Assembly (NCBI RefSeq): GCF_008831505.1
Contig: NZ_CP044507.1
Span: 1-64,000 of the forward strand
Length of the DNA: 64,000 nt
Reading direction: 5' to 3'
From: Chryseobacterium sp.
Lineage (GTDB): Bacteria > Bacteroidota > Bacteroidia > Flavobacteriales > Weeksellaceae
Every line of letters starts with the position of its first letter. Position 1 is the first letter of the stretch. Below are positions 5,204 to 21,542 of this stretch, piece by piece. The notes beneath the pieces were generated by a model that saw only the letters and a list, made by a program, of their open reading frames with translations, had not been told where the DNA came from and ran no database searches. The position numbers and the translations under genes are program-made.

Positions 5204-5278
5204 GGGTTCTTAGCTCAGTTGGTTCAGAGCATCTGGTTTACACCCAGAGGGTCGGGGGTTCGAATCCCTCAGGACCCA
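5204..5278 (+). tRNA. tRNA-Val (anticodon TAC)
   Basis: Cloverleaf is clear: the acceptor stem GGGTTCT pairs with AGGACCC at 5271-5277 with discriminator A at 5278. The anticodon stem TCTGG/CCAGA encloses TTTACAC, giving anticodon TAC. The T-arm is GGGTTCGAATCCC. CCA is not encoded. The last 17 bases are part of the 47-base attachment repeat, so the gene was regenerated intact when the element inserted. Confidence 0.96.
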
Positions 5279-5308
5279 CAAAATCTCAGAGAAATCTGAG
5301 ATTTTTTT
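5262..5308 (+). repeat. attL: 47-base direct repeat, left copy
   Basis: Identical to 20773-20819. It consists of the tRNA-Val T-arm/acceptor 3' side (5262-5278) plus the hairpin terminator. The first mismatches outside the repeat are C at 5261 against T at 20772, and T at 5309 against A at 20820. Confidence 0.93.
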
Positions 5309-5398: not shown

Positions 5399-5440
5399 AG
5401 GTTACCCACCAGGTTACCCATCTTTTTCCCAGGTTACCCA
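5399..5440 (+). repeat. three direct copies of AGGTTACCCA, probable integrase arm sites
   Basis: Exact copies of AGGTTACCCA at 5399-5408, 5411-5420 and 5431-5440 (start-to-start 12 and 20 bases), between attL and the integrase start at 5461. The position and regular spacing are those expected of arm-type integrase binding sites or integrase autoregulation sites. The function is inferred. Confidence 0.65.
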
Positions 5441-5460: not shown

Positions 5461-6654
5461 ATGAAACTATCAATCTTATTCCTCCTAAGGAAAAATAAAA
5501 CAAATGCAAAAGGCACATGTCCTATTGAATGTAGGCTTACACTTGATAAGCAAAGAAAGCCATTCTCTACAGGAATATTTATAAATCCTGATAATTGGAA
5601 TGCTCAAAGACAAAAAGCATTTCCACCAAATATGGACAATAACCAAATTAATAATCAATTGAGCCTGATTAAGCAAAATCTTAATCAGGCTTTTTTATTG
5701 CTGCAAGTTCAGGAAAAAGAGTTTGATGTAGATGACATCTACAGATATTATAAAGGTGAAAATATAAAACAGGACAAAACTATTCTTGATATGTTTAATC
5801 TTCACATTTCTAAGCAAGAGAAGCTGATTGGAATTACAACCACAGCAGTTTCAGTAGCCAAGTTCTACCAGACAAGAAATCATCTGAAATCTTTTATTAA
5901 GTATAAATATAACAGGGGAGATTTCATGCTAAAGGAAATGACAATGGCATTTATTACAGAATTTGAATACTATTTGAAAGCAGAAAAACAGTTTAAACAA
6001 AATACCATCCATAAAACCTTACAAAGGTTTAAGCAAATTGTAAAGCAGGCAGTGGGATTAGACTTCTTAGAGAAAGATCCATTCCTTCTGCACAAGAATA
6101 AGAAACCTACTAAGCAAGTGATATTCTTAAGTCCAGAGGAGCTAGCTAAATTAGAGCAGTATAAATTTGCTTCTGTACGACTACAGCAAGTAGCTGATAT
6201 GTTTATATTTTGTTGCTATACGGGGCTACCCTACCAGGAAATGAGAAGTCTTAAGAGTAGTGATATTCAAACAGGTTTCGATGGTAATAAGTGGATTGTT
6301 TTAACTAGACAAAAAACTGACAAGCCCTATTCAATACCGTTACTTTCCAAAGCACAAAAGATTTTGGATAGATATTCACCGGAGTATGAGGTGCTTCCGG
6401 TAATTTCAAATCAAAGATTAAATGCATATCTTAAGGAGATTGCTGAAATTTTGGGTATTGACAAGAACCTTACACATCATATGGCCAGAAAGACATTTGC
6501 TTCCACTATTCTACTATATAATGATATTCCTATGGAGATTGTTTCTGAACTCTTAGGTCATTCAGAAATAAGCACTACCCAAGGACACTATGCTAAGGTT
6601 GTACAGAAGAAGATAAGTCAGCAGATGAATCTGCTTGATAGAAAGCTTAAATGA
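5461..6654 (+). CDS. int: tyrosine recombinase/integrase of the element
   Basis: 397-residue Bacteroidota-type site-specific integrase. The N-terminal arm-binding domain (about 1-95) is followed by a SAM-like core-binding domain (about 105-205) and the catalytic domain (about 220-385). Visible catalytic positions are Lys near 285, His340 and Arg343 (HHMAR), His367 (LGH) and the nucleophile Tyr377 (GHYAK). The first catalytic Arg of the usual TGLR box is absent: the segment reads TGLPYQEM at 254-261, as in the IntDOT-like branch where this Arg is replaced. Its place next to attL and the AGGTTACCCA array indicates that it catalyses integration and excision at tRNA-Val. Confidence 0.93.
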   Translation: MKLSILFLLRKNKTNAKGTCPIECRLTLDKQRKPFSTGIFINPDNWNAQRQKAFPPNMDNNQINNQLSLIKQNLNQAFLLLQVQEKEFDVDDIYRYYKGENIKQDKTILDMFNLHISKQEKLIGITTTAVSVAKFYQTRNHLKSFIKYKYNRGDFMLKEMTMAFITEFEYYLKAEKQFKQNTIHKTLQRFKQIVKQAVGLDFLEKDPFLLHKNKKPTKQVIFLSPEELAKLEQYKFASVRLQQVADMFIFCCYTGLPYQEMRSLKSSDIQTGFDGNKWIVLTRQKTDKPYSIPLLSKAQKILDRYSPEYEVLPVISNQRLNAYLKEIAEILGIDKNLTHHMARKTFASTILLYNDIPMEIVSELLGHSEISTTQGHYAKVVQKKISQQMNLLDRKLK

Positions 6655-11210: not shown

Positions 11211-11242
11211 GACTGCCTCACATAGGTGAGGTGGTCTTTTTT
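11211..11242 (+). terminator. terminator between the DUF3871 gene and the cargo operon
   Basis: GAC..CCTCAC/ATAG/GTGAGG..GTC hairpin followed by a T run on the plus strand. It closes the int-helicase-ATPase-DUF3871 transcript. Confidence 0.75.
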
Positions 11243-12212
11243 AAAATTCAACCGTATAAAGCCAAAATCTAGAAATTCCCTCAGAAGTTTCTTTTTCATA
11301 TCCACTGCAGAAAGGAAATATGATGCTAACGCTTCTATCTATACATTCAAAAATATAGTATAAAGCCATACCCAAAGTCTGCGATTTTGTTGACAGGGGG
11401 CATAGATATAAATTTGTTATAGGACTCACCTCATTTGCTTTCTTAACAAACTTACTTAAAAGAGATGCTGTGACAAATGGATCATTTGCAGGAGCCAGAA
11501 TAACATCCTTTGAATCCAATTCAATTTTGGGATAAATTTCCTCTTCTGCTTGATATGCCTTTAAAACATTTTGTTGAAACATATCTGCTTGCAGAGATGG
11601 AAATCCTAAAATTTGAACTTTTTTTGTTTTCTTTTTTTCTTTGGCTATATTTAGGACCATGTTATAATCGTATCCTGATCCTATAATTAAATAATCATTA
11701 CTAACATCCACGGAATGTGACCCTCCACATCCCATAATTTCTCTAACATATTGAAAATCTTTTGAAAACTTAGTGTTTTCCTTGTTTTTGTAGGCAATTG
11801 GCTCAGAGTAAAGAAAATCCACTTTATTTATTCCAATTTGTTTACATAATCTGATGAAATAAACAATATGGTGTCTTAAAAAACCCGTGATATCAAAGGC
11901 GATTTTCTTATCAATGTTAGGGATTATATAATCCTTAAAATATGGTAAAAAAATTTCTGACTCATCAAATGTTAAAAACTTAAATAGATTATATTTATTT
12001 TCAAGACCTGCCAATTCCGCACATCCAAAGTTATATTCAGGTAAAATAAATATATGTTTTTCATCAGCTTCAATATTATCCATAAGATAATTAACTCGAT
12101 AACTTGAATTATAAGCTGAGATAAAAATATCATATTTTATCAGTGAGCTCTTATTACATATAAGATTATCCTTGACATCTAGTCTTCTTTTATACAGATA
12201 TTCATATTCCAT
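11241..12212 (-). CDS. Rossmann-like protein of unknown function, last gene of the cargo operon
   Basis: I cannot name this 323-residue protein. It alternates predicted strands and helices without signal peptide or membrane spans. Notable segments are YSEPIAYK followed by a Phe-Ser-x-Asp stretch at about 135-153, IIGSGYDYNMVLNIA (about 176-190), a strand ending ILGFPS, VILAPANDPF (about 237) and, near the end, YLCPLSTKSQTLGMALYYI then SIIFPF and a final RFWLY. The CPL-[GS]-TK-x-Q-x-LG-x-AL pattern with a terminal Trp-Leu-Tyr resembles uncharacterised proteins I remember beside conflict-system NTPases. A Rossmannoid or CARF-like ligand sensor or effector is the best guess. Its ATG directly follows the ATPase stop (TAAATG, no gap), so the two are translationally coupled. 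Confidence 0.6.
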   Translation of the reverse strand: MEYEYLYKRRLDVKDNLICNKSSLIKYDIFISAYNSSYRVNYLMDNIEADEKHIFILPEYNFGCAELAGLENKYNLFKFLTFDESEIFLPYFKDYIIPNIDKKIAFDITGFLRHHIVYFIRLCKQIGINKVDFLYSEPIAYKNKENTKFSKDFQYVREIMGCGGSHSVDVSNDYLIIGSGYDYNMVLNIAKEKKKTKKVQILGFPSLQADMFQQNVLKAYQAEEEIYPKIELDSKDVILAPANDPFVTASLLSKFVKKANEVSPITNLYLCPLSTKSQTLGMALYYIFECIDRSVSIIFPFCSGYEKETSEGISRFWLYTVEF

Positions 12213-14138
12213 TTAATCAAATAATTCTAATACAGTATTTTCCTTTCTAAAAGGAACATTATATTTTAATAATTCCTTTGCCATCATTATTTTAAGTTCC
12301 TCAGCCCTGTTATAGTAAAAGATGTTTTCCAGTTTGTCACTAGAAAGTTTTACAATTCCTCTCCTACTAATTGACAACTCCCACCAACATGCCAATAGTC
12401 CATTAATTTGATACATATCATTTCTTACATTAGAGTTTTTATCTCTCCTTCCGTAATCTTCTTTTATAATATAGGAGTATTGTTCTAAAAATGTGATTAT
12501 CCTTTTTAACCCCGGATTAAAATCTACATTCCTAATTTCAAATGTACTTATGCTACATTCAGGTGGCAAATCAGAAAATCTCAACTCTCTTAAAAAATTA
12601 CATATACTTTCGATACTATATCTATAATTAGTATTTTCATCAGTTTTATTTGCATCCTCCATAAACCAGAGTACTGTGTCCTTTATTGCTAAGAGTTGAA
12701 TTTCAGTTGAAACTGTATTACTAGCGAAATCATTTTCGTAGAATGTGTTCCATCTAAAAATGTGTTTCATTATCATAAGAAAATGTCTTGGTATCCCATT
12801 GCTTATTTTAACTAAATTATCAAAACCACAATATGAAGTAAGTTTTAGACCATTTTCTCTGTATAGTGCATCAATTAAATCTTGTTTGAATTTATCTAAT
12901 ATTACGTCATACATCTTAACATTATGCCCACTGATGTACTGTTGACTACATTCTTTTAATAGACTTGATATTTCAATTAGATTTTCACCTTTTTTTATAC
13001 TTCTGTAAATAATATAAATATTTAATCTTTCTATTAAAACGTTTTCACAACCAACATTTTTTACAATTTCATTTACATTTTTTACCTTATATTTTTTTAA
13101 TTTGGTAATGAATTTGTCAATGTGTAGTCTTTTTCCTTTTATTATTTCAAAATCACTATCAAGGTTTGACTGATTAAAATATTTAGATATATCTGTTGAA
13201 ATCCTAATCTGGGAATTAGCTATTCTCTTAATGCTAATATTTCTTAAAAATTCTCTGTATTCAACATAGTTTTCTCTAAAAATATTATCCAAATCAAAAA
13301 GTTCATATTCAGAACCTGCTTTAATATGTTCGTCTGCACTTAAAGTTTCTGTCGTTTTTAAACCATATCTTCTAGCACCTATTTTAAAGCAAACAGGATT
13401 TCTTCTCTCCCTTATAAGTGTATTAAAATACTTTTGTTGGCCAGAAGAAAAGTTCTCATATTCATCAAGTAGAAAGAGAATTTTGATGTTAGTAAGTTCG
13501 GGAACTGTTGAAGTAATAATATTTGGAATTTCAAAAATTAAATCCCCTGGATTTGATAAAATTTCAACAGATTGACTCAAATTTTTACTGCTGAGTGATA
13601 TATTATTTATAGCATGATCAATATTTTTTTGTTGCAATTTCAAAAAATCTATTAATCCACGTATATCAATAATTTTTTCCTTGCTCGTGCTAAAAAGATT
13701 TAAAACTTTCTCGCATACAATGCCCTCCAATTTTTGTAAACCTTTATTAATAACAAAAATATTGTCTATTACATCAAGAAAAAGCTGAGATAGCCATAAA
13801 TCTAAGTAGTAAGCAAAAACTGAATTCCATGTTTCTTCAGTTTCATTTCTACCCAAAAATCTATATCCATTTAACCCAGAGCATCTTAAATAAACTCCAA
13901 TATAACCCTCTTTTAAAATATTATCAAATGTGTTATTGGATCTTATCTTTTGCATACTATAACTAAAATGCTTCATGATATGAGTCTTGCCACTTCCTTT
14001 ACTTCCAACAATTAGCATTGGCATCTCAAGAGTAGGTCTAATAAAATTTTGAAAACTATGTTTTGGAAAATCTACCCAGTTATAGAATAATTCTTGATCT
14101 GAGTAGTCCACTGCTTTTGTTACATCAAATGGATTCAT
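12213..14138 (-). CDS. ORC/CDC6-like P-loop ATPase of the cargo operon
   Basis: 641-residue AAA-type ATPase. Walker A GSKGSGKT lies at residues 45-52 and Walker B FLLDEYE at 222-228, followed by an Arg-rich RRNPVCFKIGARRYG segment that has the form of sensor 1/arginine positions. The last third (about 430-641) is helical and probably contains winged-helix domains. It agrees with my memory of an ORC-CDC6-like family defined from predicted bacterial conflict systems, where it acts as a nucleotide-dependent switch; this is family knowledge, not shown here. It starts one base after the PRTase stop and ends directly at the Rossmann-like gene start. Base composition is extremely AT-rich. Confidence 0.7.
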   Translation of the reverse strand: MNPFDVTKAVDYSDQELFYNWVDFPKHSFQNFIRPTLEMPMLIVGSKGSGKTHIMKHFSYSMQKIRSNNTFDNILKEGYIGVYLRCSGLNGYRFLGRNETEETWNSVFAYYLDLWLSQLFLDVIDNIFVINKGLQKLEGIVCEKVLNLFSTSKEKIIDIRGLIDFLKLQQKNIDHAINNISLSSKNLSQSVEILSNPGDLIFEIPNIITSTVPELTNIKILFLLDEYENFSSGQQKYFNTLIRERRNPVCFKIGARRYGLKTTETLSADEHIKAGSEYELFDLDNIFRENYVEYREFLRNISIKRIANSQIRISTDISKYFNQSNLDSDFEIIKGKRLHIDKFITKLKKYKVKNVNEIVKNVGCENVLIERLNIYIIYRSIKKGENLIEISSLLKECSQQYISGHNVKMYDVILDKFKQDLIDALYRENGLKLTSYCGFDNLVKISNGIPRHFLMIMKHIFRWNTFYENDFASNTVSTEIQLLAIKDTVLWFMEDANKTDENTNYRYSIESICNFLRELRFSDLPPECSISTFEIRNVDFNPGLKRIITFLEQYSYIIKEDYGRRDKNSNVRNDMYQINGLLACWWELSISRRGIVKLSSDKLENIFYYNRAEELKIMMAKELLKYNVPFRKENTVLELFD

Positions 14139-14139
14139 T

Positions 14140-15084
14140 TTAATAAACTTTATTTGCTCTAGGGAAAATTGGATTCCATGTTATCATATCTTCATTATAC
14201 CAAATTATTGGCAAAGTATTATCGGGAGTATTATGATGGAACCCTATTAATAATTGGCTGTCATTATACCCAAGTTTGTGGGGGGCTGCATAATACGGAT
14301 TTCCGCCTTGTCTAATTACAATTGATTCATATAATTGCAATCCATAGCTTTCACAAATTTGTTTTAAGTCATCCTGCTTAATATTATCTTCATTATTTTT
14401 AAAAATTCTTGATTCGCTACTAAAACATTTATATGTTTTATCTAATCTAAGGACACTCTCCAAAAAATCATATTGATTATTTCCATTAAGAAATTCTAAA
14501 CCTTCTTCAAGGCCCACCAAAGAATAATAATGTATTTTTGAATTAGGAAACTTGGTCCTAATATGAGAAATGTATGCTTGATTTTCGTGATATGCTTGAT
14601 GACCACTACCACATATGTCATCAATAAAAATAAAATGTTCAATATCGCCTAATGTAAAGTTTAACAATTCAGATCTCTCGATAAATAGATCTTTCCTGAT
14701 ATTATTAATTTTTCTAAATTCACCAAGTAAGCTAGAACTGCTTTCCGACGGGTTACCAATTGGAATAAATCTGCTTTTTCTTTCCGATTCTTTAAAGTGA
14801 TTTTTTATTGACACTATATCAGTAGTATTATTATTACTTAACCTATAATTTTCTACAATAACATATTTATAAAAGTCTCTATAAATAGAAATTAACATAT
14901 TGTCAATTTGCAATTTACTAAAGTAAATAAACTGTGTTAGGAGAAATAATAGATTTTCTCTTTCTTCTTCCTTAAAATTACTTAACCAAATATCAATTTT
15001 ATTCTTAGATATTTTATGCTCCCAAACTGTTTCACTGAAAATTTTCAGCTTATAATAATATTTGTCAATATTTTCTTCAGCCAT
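14140..15084 (-). CDS. phosphoribosyltransferase-fold protein of the cargo operon
   Basis: 314 residues. The PRPP-binding loop signature is visible as FIFIDDICGSG at 151-161, where the two Asp and the Gly-Ser-Gly correspond to the canonical DD-x(3)-TG loop. The first 75 residues are helical (WLSNFKEEERENLLFLLTQF region) and the C-terminus carries a distinctive NTPDNTLPIIWY segment. This combination matches what I recall of a PRTase-like family of conflict systems (PRTase-CE), distinct from nucleotide-salvage PRTases such as Apt at 62167. Substrate unknown: it may make or hydrolyse a nucleotide signal or modify a target. It overlaps the methylase gene by 8 bases (ATGGCTGA). Confidence 0.72.
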   Translation of the reverse strand: MAEENIDKYYYKLKIFSETVWEHKISKNKIDIWLSNFKEEERENLLFLLTQFIYFSKLQIDNMLISIYRDFYKYVIVENYRLSNNNTTDIVSIKNHFKESERKSRFIPIGNPSESSSSLLGEFRKINNIRKDLFIERSELLNFTLGDIEHFIFIDDICGSGHQAYHENQAYISHIRTKFPNSKIHYYSLVGLEEGLEFLNGNNQYDFLESVLRLDKTYKCFSSESRIFKNNEDNIKQDDLKQICESYGLQLYESIVIRQGGNPYYAAPHKLGYNDSQLLIGFHHNTPDNTLPIIWYNEDMITWNPIFPRANKVY

Positions 15085-16396
15085 TTTTTTTAAAAATCAA
15101 TATGTGTTCTGAGGATATTATGCTCGCAGTTTTATTCCTCTTTGTCATTAAGCCATAAGACTTTATATCATCTACCATTTCGCATTCTAAAGTAAATCCT
15201 AACTTAAGTATTATTTCTTTTAGATATTCTTGTGTTCTAAATTCATAGTTACATACTACATTATTGGAGGCAACCAATACTAAGTATTTATTTTTCTTTA
15301 AAACTCTTGCAGATTCTTTAAATGCCTCTGCCATTTCAAGTATGTAGTTTGCTGCTATGTAAGCTCTCAGAGGATTTTTGTCAAATATTTTTTGGAGTAA
15401 ATAATCAGCACTTTTAATGTCTGTTTTTTTTAAAGCTTTATATTCATCTTTTTTGTAGTTTTCTCTGCCAATATTTAATTTATCTAATTCTCCTAAACTA
15501 TTATATCCTAGCCAATATAAATTTAAACTCGATGCTCTTATATATTTTTGAGCACCTGCATATGGAGGGGAGGTTAGAATTAAATCTATAGAATTATCCC
15601 TTAGAGGTGTTAAATTTCTAGAATCTTCGGAAACTAGTTTTCCAACTTGCCTATAATTACTTATAAAGGATTTGTTTTCAACTCTTTTTATATTTTGATC
15701 TACAATTTCAAAGAATTTGTCAAAAACACTAATTGATTTTAATTCATCTAGCTTCTTTAGAGAACTAATCTTTAATTTAGACCCATCTGCATATCTATCA
15801 GGATTTAACTTTACTGGAACAGAAATTCTTGAATCAGCTTTACTAACTTTCCTCACACAATTTGAAAAACATAAAAGGTAGAATTCTTGATACTTTACTT
15901 CCTTAATATTAGACACAACTTCTTTTATAGAAGCTAATTGGACTTGAATGTGTTTTTCAAACCAGAAATCAAAGGACTTATTGCCAATAAAGTTATGGAC
16001 TGAAGTAACATTGCCTAAATCTTTTTTTAATCGATTTTTTATGTTTTCTAACTTTGATATATCATAATTATTACATTTTACTCTAGTGATAAGTCTCGCC
16101 AATGGATTCGCATCACTTCCAAAAGAATTTAAACCTGCTAATTTTGCTTCTAAGAGTACTGTCCCTGATCCGCAAAATGGATCTAAAACTTTTGCTCTAT
16201 CTGAAACAAAAAATGAGTTGTTAAAAAAATAATAAGGAATATTAGGAATTAACTTTGCTGTATAAGTATGTATAGAGTGAGTCGCTCTCTCTGTAAACTT
16301 AACGGAGTCCACTAATTTTTTGAAATCAACACTAACTGGTTTTTTTTCTAGGTTGTACTCGATCAATATCTCTTCAAAATTCTCTTTATAGTCCAA
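15077..16396 (-). CDS. DNA methyltransferase (N4/N6 type), first gene of the cargo operon
   Basis: 439 residues. The AdoMet-binding motif I DPFCGSGT is at 72-79, the GSDANPLA acidic strand at 93-100 and the catalytic TSPPY at 275-279, followed by GAQKYIRASS. Motif I precedes the SPPY motif, and no target-recognition or restriction domain is visible. It should methylate exocyclic amino groups of cytosine or adenine in DNA. No restriction endonuclease gene lies beside it; instead it opens an operon with a PRTase-like protein and a large ATPase. A TATATTTG box on the minus strand lies 22-30 bases upstream of its ATG. Confidence 0.82.
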   Translation of the reverse strand: MDYKENFEEILIEYNLEKKPVSVDFKKLVDSVKFTERATHSIHTYTAKLIPNIPYYFFNNSFFVSDRAKVLDPFCGSGTVLLEAKLAGLNSFGSDANPLARLITRVKCNNYDISKLENIKNRLKKDLGNVTSVHNFIGNKSFDFWFEKHIQVQLASIKEVVSNIKEVKYQEFYLLCFSNCVRKVSKADSRISVPVKLNPDRYADGSKLKISSLKKLDELKSISVFDKFFEIVDQNIKRVENKSFISNYRQVGKLVSEDSRNLTPLRDNSIDLILTSPPYAGAQKYIRASSLNLYWLGYNSLGELDKLNIGRENYKKDEYKALKKTDIKSADYLLQKIFDKNPLRAYIAANYILEMAEAFKESARVLKKNKYLVLVASNNVVCNYEFRTQEYLKEIILKLGFTLECEMVDDIKSYGLMTKRNKTASIISSEHILIFKKNG

Positions 16397-20695: not shown

Positions 20696-20715
20696 AGGCA
20701 TACTTTTAGGCATAC
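20696..20715 (+). repeat. two direct copies of AGGCATAC near the right end of the element
   Basis: AGGCATAC at 20696-20703 and 20708-20715, start-to-start 12 bases as in the first two left arm sites. This could be a diverged arm or excisionase site on the right side. Weak evidence. Confidence 0.35.
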
Positions 20716-20772
20716 CCTGAAAAACTAAAGCTTTACAAGTCCCATAAACAGTAGCTTTTTGAGAAAGTGGAT

Positions 20773-20819
20773 GAATCCCTCAGGACCCACAAAATCTCAG
20801 AGAAATCTGAGATTTTTTT
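20773..20819 (+). repeat. attR: 47-base direct repeat, right copy
   Basis: Identical to 5262-5308. It carries the last 17 bases of a tRNA-Val(TAC) gene without the rest of the gene, plus an orphan copy of the hairpin terminator (stem 20792-20801/20806-20815), and lies 6 bases before tRNA-Val(GAC). Confidence 0.93.
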
Positions 20820-20933: not shown

Positions 20934-20961
20934 ATGTCTACCTTTCAAATATATCTTTTTT

Positions 20962-21003
20962 AGGTTACCCTCCTGGTTACCCAAAAATTTCTTAGGTTAC
21001 CCA
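20962..21003 (+). repeat. second three-copy AGGTTACCCA-type array, outside the element
   Basis: AGGTTACCCT at 20962-20971, TGGTTACCCA at 20974-20983 and AGGTTACCCA at 20994-21003: start-to-start 12 and 20 bases, exactly as in the array at 5399-5440. The surrounding bases (TTTTTAGG before, TTTC in the longer spacer, CAT after) also align over about 50 bases. Probably a relic of the integrase-proximal end of a related element beside tRNA-Val(GAC). Confidence 0.65.
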
Positions 21004-21215
21004 TTCTAATCACTATAAATTAACATTTCTAGGATCAGGTATAAAACGGATCAGGAACAAAACCTGGGGGATTAGGCAAAAAGTGTGATGAGTCTGTATA
21101 GGAAGAAAGACCTGTCTTTTACGCCGCGTAACTGGATTCTGAAGTTTTTTATTTTTTTTCAGCTGCTGCACTGCAGCCGCCATTCAATTATAACGATGGG
21201 GTAGGTCCTGAAAAC

Positions 21216-21244
21216 AAAAAAGCTGCTAATCAGAGATTAACAGC
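21216..21244 (-). terminator. terminator of the tRNA-Leu/Gly/Leu operon
   Basis: On the minus strand GCTGTTAATC pairs with GATTAGCAGC (one T-G), followed by TTTTTT. Confidence 0.75.
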
Positions 21245-21254
21245 AATTTTTAAG

Positions 21255-21338
21255 TACCCCGGACGGGACTTGAACCCGTACGTCCTTGCGGACACAGGAT
21301 TTTAAGTCCTGCGTGTCTACCAATTCCACCACCAGGGC
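21255..21338 (-). tRNA. tRNA-Leu (anticodon TAA)
   Basis: 84-base class II tRNA with long variable arm. The anticodon stem CAGGA/TCCTG encloses CTTAAAA, giving TAA. The T-arm is ACGGG-TTCAAGT-CCCGT. Acceptor GCCCTGG/CCGGGGT. Last gene of the minus-strand operon. Confidence 0.94.
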
Positions 21339-21351
21339 CTGGTAGATGTTG

Positions 21352-21424
<73 letters not shown>

Positions 21425-21460
21425 ATAAAAAAATTTCTAAAATTGCTTTTAGAAATTTGG

Positions 21461-21542
21461 TGCGGATGAAGGGACTCGAACCCCCACGCCTCACGGCACC
21501 AGATCCTAAGTCTGGCGTGGCTACCAATTACACCACATCCGC
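21461..21542 (-). tRNA. tRNA-Leu (anticodon TAG)
   Basis: 82-base class II tRNA. The anticodon stem CCAGA/TCTGG encloses CTTAGGA, giving TAG. Acceptor GCGGATG pairs with CATCCGC. First gene of the operon. Confidence 0.94.

Follow-up and report, generated by a model that had tools for sequence, protein, structure and literature searches.

A probable relic of a second integrative element behind the resident tRNA-Val element of a Chryseobacterium genome

Introduction

The integrases of the Bacteroidota elements NBU1 and CTnDOT are placed among the arm-binding tyrosine recombinases, in the IntCTnDOT subgroup (PMC8138268). For NBU1, the 3' end of a leucine tRNA is reported as the target (PMC10865867). 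In the flavobacterium Riemerella anatipestifer, integration and excision of a 10K genomic island have been demonstrated experimentally (PMC6764341), and in Actinobacteria there are phages that bring along a tRNA next to the tRNA gene at which they attach (PMC10865867). Arm-binding integrases, targeting of tRNA 3' ends, stacked islands and decay mediated by insertion sequences (IS) are all established (PMC8138268, PMC6764341, PMC2297512).

Here, a tRNA-Val locus of Chryseobacterium sp. is described, which lies in a window of 64,000 nucleotides (the whole stretch analysed; contig NZ_CP044507.1 of assembly GCF_008831505.1, positions 1 to 64,000). An initial annotation, made from the letters of this window, had pointed out that a short repeat array at one end of a resident element recurs beyond its other end, and had explained the second copy as the integrase-proximal end of a lost relative. 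The locus was compared with related elements in the family Weeksellaceae, whose genomes are referred to by handles (G001 and so on) where they have to be told apart.

Results

A resident 15.5-kb integrative element is found between tRNA-Val(TAC) and a 47-nt copy of the 3' end and terminator of that tRNA (Table 1). Its att repeats, which begin at 5262 and 20773 and are in direct orientation, cover the tRNA 3' end. The arm, core-binding and catalytic domains of its integrase were all found with Pfam, and the integrase ATG follows the end of the left array after 20 nt. Near the right end, the motif pair AGGCATACTTTTAGGCATACCC stands 78 and 66 bp ahead of the core, in the window and at the right ends of 14 other elements (nearly all), irrespective of arm type; another factor may bind there, or the pair may reflect a second binding mode of the integrase. 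The cargo includes CARF-like, ORC-CDC6-like (PF24389), PRTase-CE (PF24390) and methyltransferase genes in a row on the minus strand (11241-16396), which probably form a defence cluster.

Table 1. Features of the tRNA-Val locus (positions in the window).
Feature	Position	Strand	Basis or remark
tRNA-Val(TAC), attachment gene, attL side	5204..5279	+	ARAGORN; direct repeat
attL repeat: tRNA-Val(TAC) 3' end and terminator	5262..5308	+	52-nt direct repeat, 96%
Left arm-site array (putative)	5399..5440	+	three AGGTTACCCA, 12/20
Resident integrase	5461..6654	+	Pfam: PF17293 (Arm-DNA-bind_5), PF13102 (SAM-like), PF00589 (Phage_integrase)
Motif pair of the right end (GGCATACTT and GGCATACCC, 12 bp apart), 66-78 bp ahead of core	20697..20717	+	kept across elements with different arm types
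attR repeat of resident element: tRNA-Val(TAC) 3' end and terminator	20773..20819	+	direct repeat comparison
tRNA-Val(GAC), single copy found in this genome	20826..20901	+	ARAGORN; probably inside left end of older element
int leader of the probable lost element	20957..21031	+	homologous to K. haifensis leader up to A of int ATG
Right (relic) arm-site array, putative	20962..21003	+	GGTTACCC x3, 12/20
Two abutting 16-bp ISAon1-like terminal repeats GGATCAGGWAYAAAAC	21032..21063	+	at truncation point
3' end of ISAon1-family insertion sequence	21048..21157	-	NF049917 positions 301-327 of 327, E 3.5e-8
Junction region with inversion breakpoint	21158..21253	.	homology to tRNA-Leu flank of relatives from near 21199
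tRNA-Leu, tRNA-Gly, tRNA-Leu cluster	21254..21542	-	adjoins mutL in three congeneric genomes

The word GGTTACCC, three times with start-to-start distances of 12 and 20, is present twice in the genome of 2.76 Mb, at 5400 and at 20963. In the left array all units are exact copies of the 10-mer AGGTTACCCA (5399, 5411 and 5431); the right array consists of AGGTTACCCT (20962), TGGTTACCCA (20974) and AGGTTACCCA (20994), the exact 10-mer being present in the third unit only and the other two differing by one flanking base each. The 8-mer is exact in six of the six units, and the arrays align over 48 bp without a gap at 83% identity, in agreement with the roughly 50 aligned bases noted at first. The second array had been called mirrored, which is true of its 12/20 spacing but not in the literal sense, since both arrays have the same orientation. 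Its place past attR and 61 bases after tRNA-Val(GAC) is as first described, and so is the asymmetry between the copies: the left one is followed by the resident integrase, and no integrase frame was found after the right one when it was looked for.

When up to three mismatches were allowed, the spaced triple matched these two sites alone in the own genome and was present in 6 of the 320 family genomes, in which a reversed-pattern control gave 0 matches. A scan for the exact triple in 84,980 named species genomes gave two other matches, Kaistella haifensis and Amniculibacterium aquaticum, and none of the viral contigs searched contained the array. A looser pattern with two mismatches added G188, where an element with the same arm type sits at tRNA-Met, and one match in G171; its reversed control gave 5 matches, so such matches are not trusted alone. 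The recurrence of the triple is not chance. Because 12/20 spacing is general among these integrases, it does not connect the two copies by itself; they are linked by spacing, sequence and leader together.

In G001, G083, G254 and G260 (K. haifensis), the same triple follows tRNA-Val and immediately precedes an intact integrase that shares 71-74% identity with the resident one, the arrangement that the initial annotation had proposed to search for; in G286 it precedes a decayed integrase start. In the intact relatives the array stands ahead of int, and its start is 57-85 nt away from the ATG. A wider search detected related integrases in 54 of the 320 family genomes. Among 30 leaders, 26 carry a triple spaced 12 and then 19-21 before int, scoring above 99 or all of 100 leader shuffles; the exceptions are G290, G053, G051 and G089. 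The repeated word varies among elements (GGTTACCC, GGTTACCA, GGTGTCCC, GGTGTGCA, GGAACACC, GGTTGCAA, GGTACACC, GGAACCCC and others); the 8-mer of each element was chosen by eye and its presence in the leaders was then checked. In 18 tRNA-Val elements, the distance between words correlated with the distance between the first 40 integrase residues (Mantel r 0.81) but not with that between catalytic domains (r 0.06), with a partial permutation p of 2e-4 in a test that controls relatedness in part only; for all 30 elements the values were 0.65 and 0.37. That the repeat tracks the N-terminal arm domain supports the label arm site, used in the initial annotation and kept here as putative, and the triple is best regarded, on this comparison of sequences, as a candidate arm-type site for the N-terminal domain of the integrase encoded directly downstream. 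The tRNA-Met element of G188 (L135, L206) has an integrase of the resident arm type and GGTTACCA repeats; arm type and target gene are therefore not tied.

Beyond the right array, the remnant leader (20957-21034) matches that of K. haifensis at 88.6% over 79 bp (E 5e-22) and that of G286 at 95% over 44 bp, and it is nearer to both than to the left copy of the window; about 30 leader nucleotides past the array are common to the remnant and G260. The match ends in AACATTTCTA, where the K. haifensis relative goes on with ATGAAAATC, and the last matched A is the A of the integrase ATG. After that A, the window reads GGATCAGGTATAAAAC and then GGATCAGGAACAAAAC, two 16-bp terminal repeats. The C-terminus of an ISAon1 transposase adjoins the terminal repeat at 21048; it is a fragment alone, far under the full-length cut-off of the model, and the stretch up to about 21157 has two further degraded copies elsewhere in the genome. 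As leader homology stops at the start codon and the ISAon1 end begins there, the older element appears to have been cut at this point by the end of an IS.

The gene order next to the truncation is also changed. A heptosyltransferase gene (hepT, named by eye from its translation) lies directly behind tRNA-Val in G288 and G289, and mutL is beside the tRNA-Leu cluster in G288, G289 and G290; in the genome of the window, hepT is beside mutL and tRNA-Val beside tRNA-Leu. These swapped neighbours are what one inversion of the block from tRNA-Val to mutL would produce. In G288 this block spans about 77 kb, and the DNA flanking it is collinear between the two genomes. On contig 1 of the own genome, mutL is 73.5 kb away from the contig end and tRNA-Val 5.2 kb away from the contig start; if the contig is circular, these distances agree with the block size. 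G288 is the nearest relative by mutL identity, so the inversion probably took place on the lineage of the window. Neither the lost integrase nor any other part of an element was seen at the other breakpoint (hepT to mutL), and the first 30 kb of the window hold no further copy of the TAC 3' end as attR of the older element; a missing attR is to be expected of a relic whose flank is interrupted by the end of an IS and by the breakpoint of an inversion. In another genus, tRNA-Val adjoins the tRNA-Leu cluster as in the window (G001 contig 15, L179). A match of 21034-21069 to this Amniculibacterium genome, considered as a sign that the adjacency is ancestral, proved to be ISAon1 terminal sequence of unrelated copies and has no weight for the ancestral order.

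With regard to the attachment core, attR was recovered for 15 elements, and all 15 begin within the T-arm of tRNA-Val(TAC), either at GAATCCCTCAGG or a few bases ahead of it; no member with a tRNA-Val(GAC) core was found among them. In G254 and G290, tRNA-Val(GAC) precedes the leader, yet attR is the TAC 3' end, after which the spacer and the whole tRNA-Val(GAC) are repeated. The simplest reading is that both have a TAC core and hold tRNA-Val(GAC) within their left end. The suggestion that this family targets both tRNA-Val genes is thus supported only in part: the recovered cores are TAC in every case, also in these two, which sit behind tRNA-Val(GAC). In 18 elements, TAC core and array are 137-281 nt apart; for the remnant, the distance is 189 when taken from the TAC core and 79 when taken from the GAC 3' end. 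The terminator behind the tRNA-Val(GAC) of the window has a similarity of 0.78-0.81 to those of G254 (left copy) and G265 and of 0.52 to that of the congener G289. The spacer before this tRNA is about equally similar (0.86 each) to those of G289 and of G267, of the genus Kaistella, and so does not discriminate between a native tRNA-Val(GAC) and one that came with an element.

Other arrangements of these tRNA genes were observed as well. The single-contig genome G288 gave no match to tRNA-Val(GAC), and its position behind tRNA-Val(TAC) is empty. G265 (L086, 7193-8330) contains three tandem units of 471 bp, each made up of the tRNA-Val(TAC) 3' end, tRNA-Val(GAC) and a GIY-YIG-like frame, and a similar frame with a tRNA-Val fragment lies to the right of attR in G001 (L179); both frames were named by eye.

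Discussion

The right array is, with high confidence, the relic of a second element, whichever site that element occupied, and intact relatives with their integrase directly behind the same array bear out this part of the initial annotation. The following history would account for the locus. An older integrative element, of which the right array would be the left, integrase-side end, would have carried the triple as a set of arm-type sites, presumably bound by its own integrase through the N-terminal domain. It would most likely have been inserted at the 3' end of tRNA-Val(TAC), with tRNA-Val(GAC) lying between its core and its array, an arrangement that G254 and G290 also appear to have. The resident 15.5-kb element would later have entered the same TAC core in front of the older one, giving the order tRNA-Val(TAC), resident element, TAC core, tRNA-Val(GAC) and second array. 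An ISAon1-type insertion sequence would have truncated the older element at the A of the int ATG, the remainder, including integrase and attR, would have been deleted, and an inversion of roughly 78 kb, from tRNA-Val to mutL, would have had its breakpoint just past the truncation.

Since the attR of the older element is gone, its core can no longer be read. Insertion at the 3' end of tRNA-Val(GAC) as a second attachment site, followed by loss of all but the leader, was the initial proposal. It would agree with the array lying directly behind tRNA-Val(GAC), as in G254 and likewise for the leader of G290, and with the native order TAC-GAC in G289, G264 and G267; the terminators behind the left tRNA-Val(GAC) of G254 and G290 also resemble native ones, which leaves room for recombination behind this gene. 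However, both these elements have an attR that begins with the 3' end of TAC, the GAC 3' end is unlike the TAC core, and the 79 nt from the GAC end to the array are fewer than any core-to-array distance, and fewer than the 112 and 157 nt of G254 and G290 measured from GAC. Insertion at tRNA-Val(GAC) is therefore not well supported and is considered less likely than insertion at tRNA-Val(TAC). Uniform TAC cores, the fitting distance and the terminator likeness together lead us to prefer two elements stacked at the tRNA-Val(TAC) site, the older relic behind and the resident one in front, as the probable arrangement.

Readings without an older element fare far worse. Equal spacing and 83% identity over 48 bp could suggest that the right array arose from the left end of the resident element by local duplication or gene conversion, but the remnant is nearer to the leaders of G260 and G286 and shares with G260 the stretch past the array, which makes such an origin highly improbable. 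Its intergenic position with no integrase might likewise fit a native regulatory or structural feature behind tRNA-Val with no tie to integration; this is the least credible of all the readings, as the array is missing beside tRNA-Val in the uninhabited sites inspected, those of G264, G265, G267, G288 and G289, where its presence would have counted against the initial annotation by that annotation's own criterion, and as the triple elsewhere stands at an integrase start, decayed in G286. Compatible with an older element at either tRNA is the idea that the relic has been kept for a function, forming with the resident attR an attP-like junction for the resident integrase. The right-end motif pair, TAC core and GGTTACCC array do follow one another as in an attP, and the 189 bp between core and array fall inside the range of the family; for tandem arrays of Salmonella genomic island 1 (SGI1), internal attP sites have been proposed to serve as partners in excision (PMC2297512). 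A mismatch to the 10-mer is, however, present in two of the three units on the right, and the relic can be explained without intact function, so that retention for this purpose seems rather improbable.

The relic is, in itself, ordinary element turnover at a tRNA hot spot. Of wider interest is the natural series of integrases found among its relatives, with one target and layout and with arm domain and arm repeat differing together, for which no description was found in the open-access papers searched; it makes arm-site recognition in Bacteroidota integrases directly testable. It is tentatively proposed that the arm domain, about 40 N-terminal residues, and the repeat word are a swappable pair on a constant frame (12/19-21 spacing, tRNA-Val core, right-end motif pair), that elements stacked at one attachment site may thereby keep separate identities and not cross-react, and that some members may carry tRNA-Val(GAC) between core and array. 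A tRNA gene also seems to travel inside the attachment region of an element. Short arrays alone also offer a way to locate element remnants and att sites.

Compared with known systems, the present elements resemble NBU1 and CTnDOT in that their integrase is a tyrosine recombinase of Bacteroidota whose arm-binding domain, at the N-terminus, is joined to a core-binding and a catalytic domain and, for NBU1, in the tRNA 3' end as target; they differ in the tRNA-Val target and the 12/19-21 triple just before int. The comparison covers domains and target. The 10K island of R. anatipestifer is also a flavobacterial tRNA-targeting island with a tyrosine integrase, but its target is tRNA-Arg, its att repeat is 53 bp, and arm sites are not mentioned in its description (PMC6764341). 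The phages of tRNA-dependent lysogeny (PMC10865867) likewise integrate into a tRNA gene and bring one along; in their case the host tRNA is disrupted and the tRNA of the phage takes its place, whereas here tRNA-Val(TAC) is intact at attL and the tRNA that appears to be carried has another anticodon. In tandem integration of SGI1 (PMC2297512), stacking at one attachment site leaves internal attP junctions, as may be the case at this locus; the SGI1 arrays consist of copies of one island, while here two different elements would be stacked, the older one reduced to its leader.
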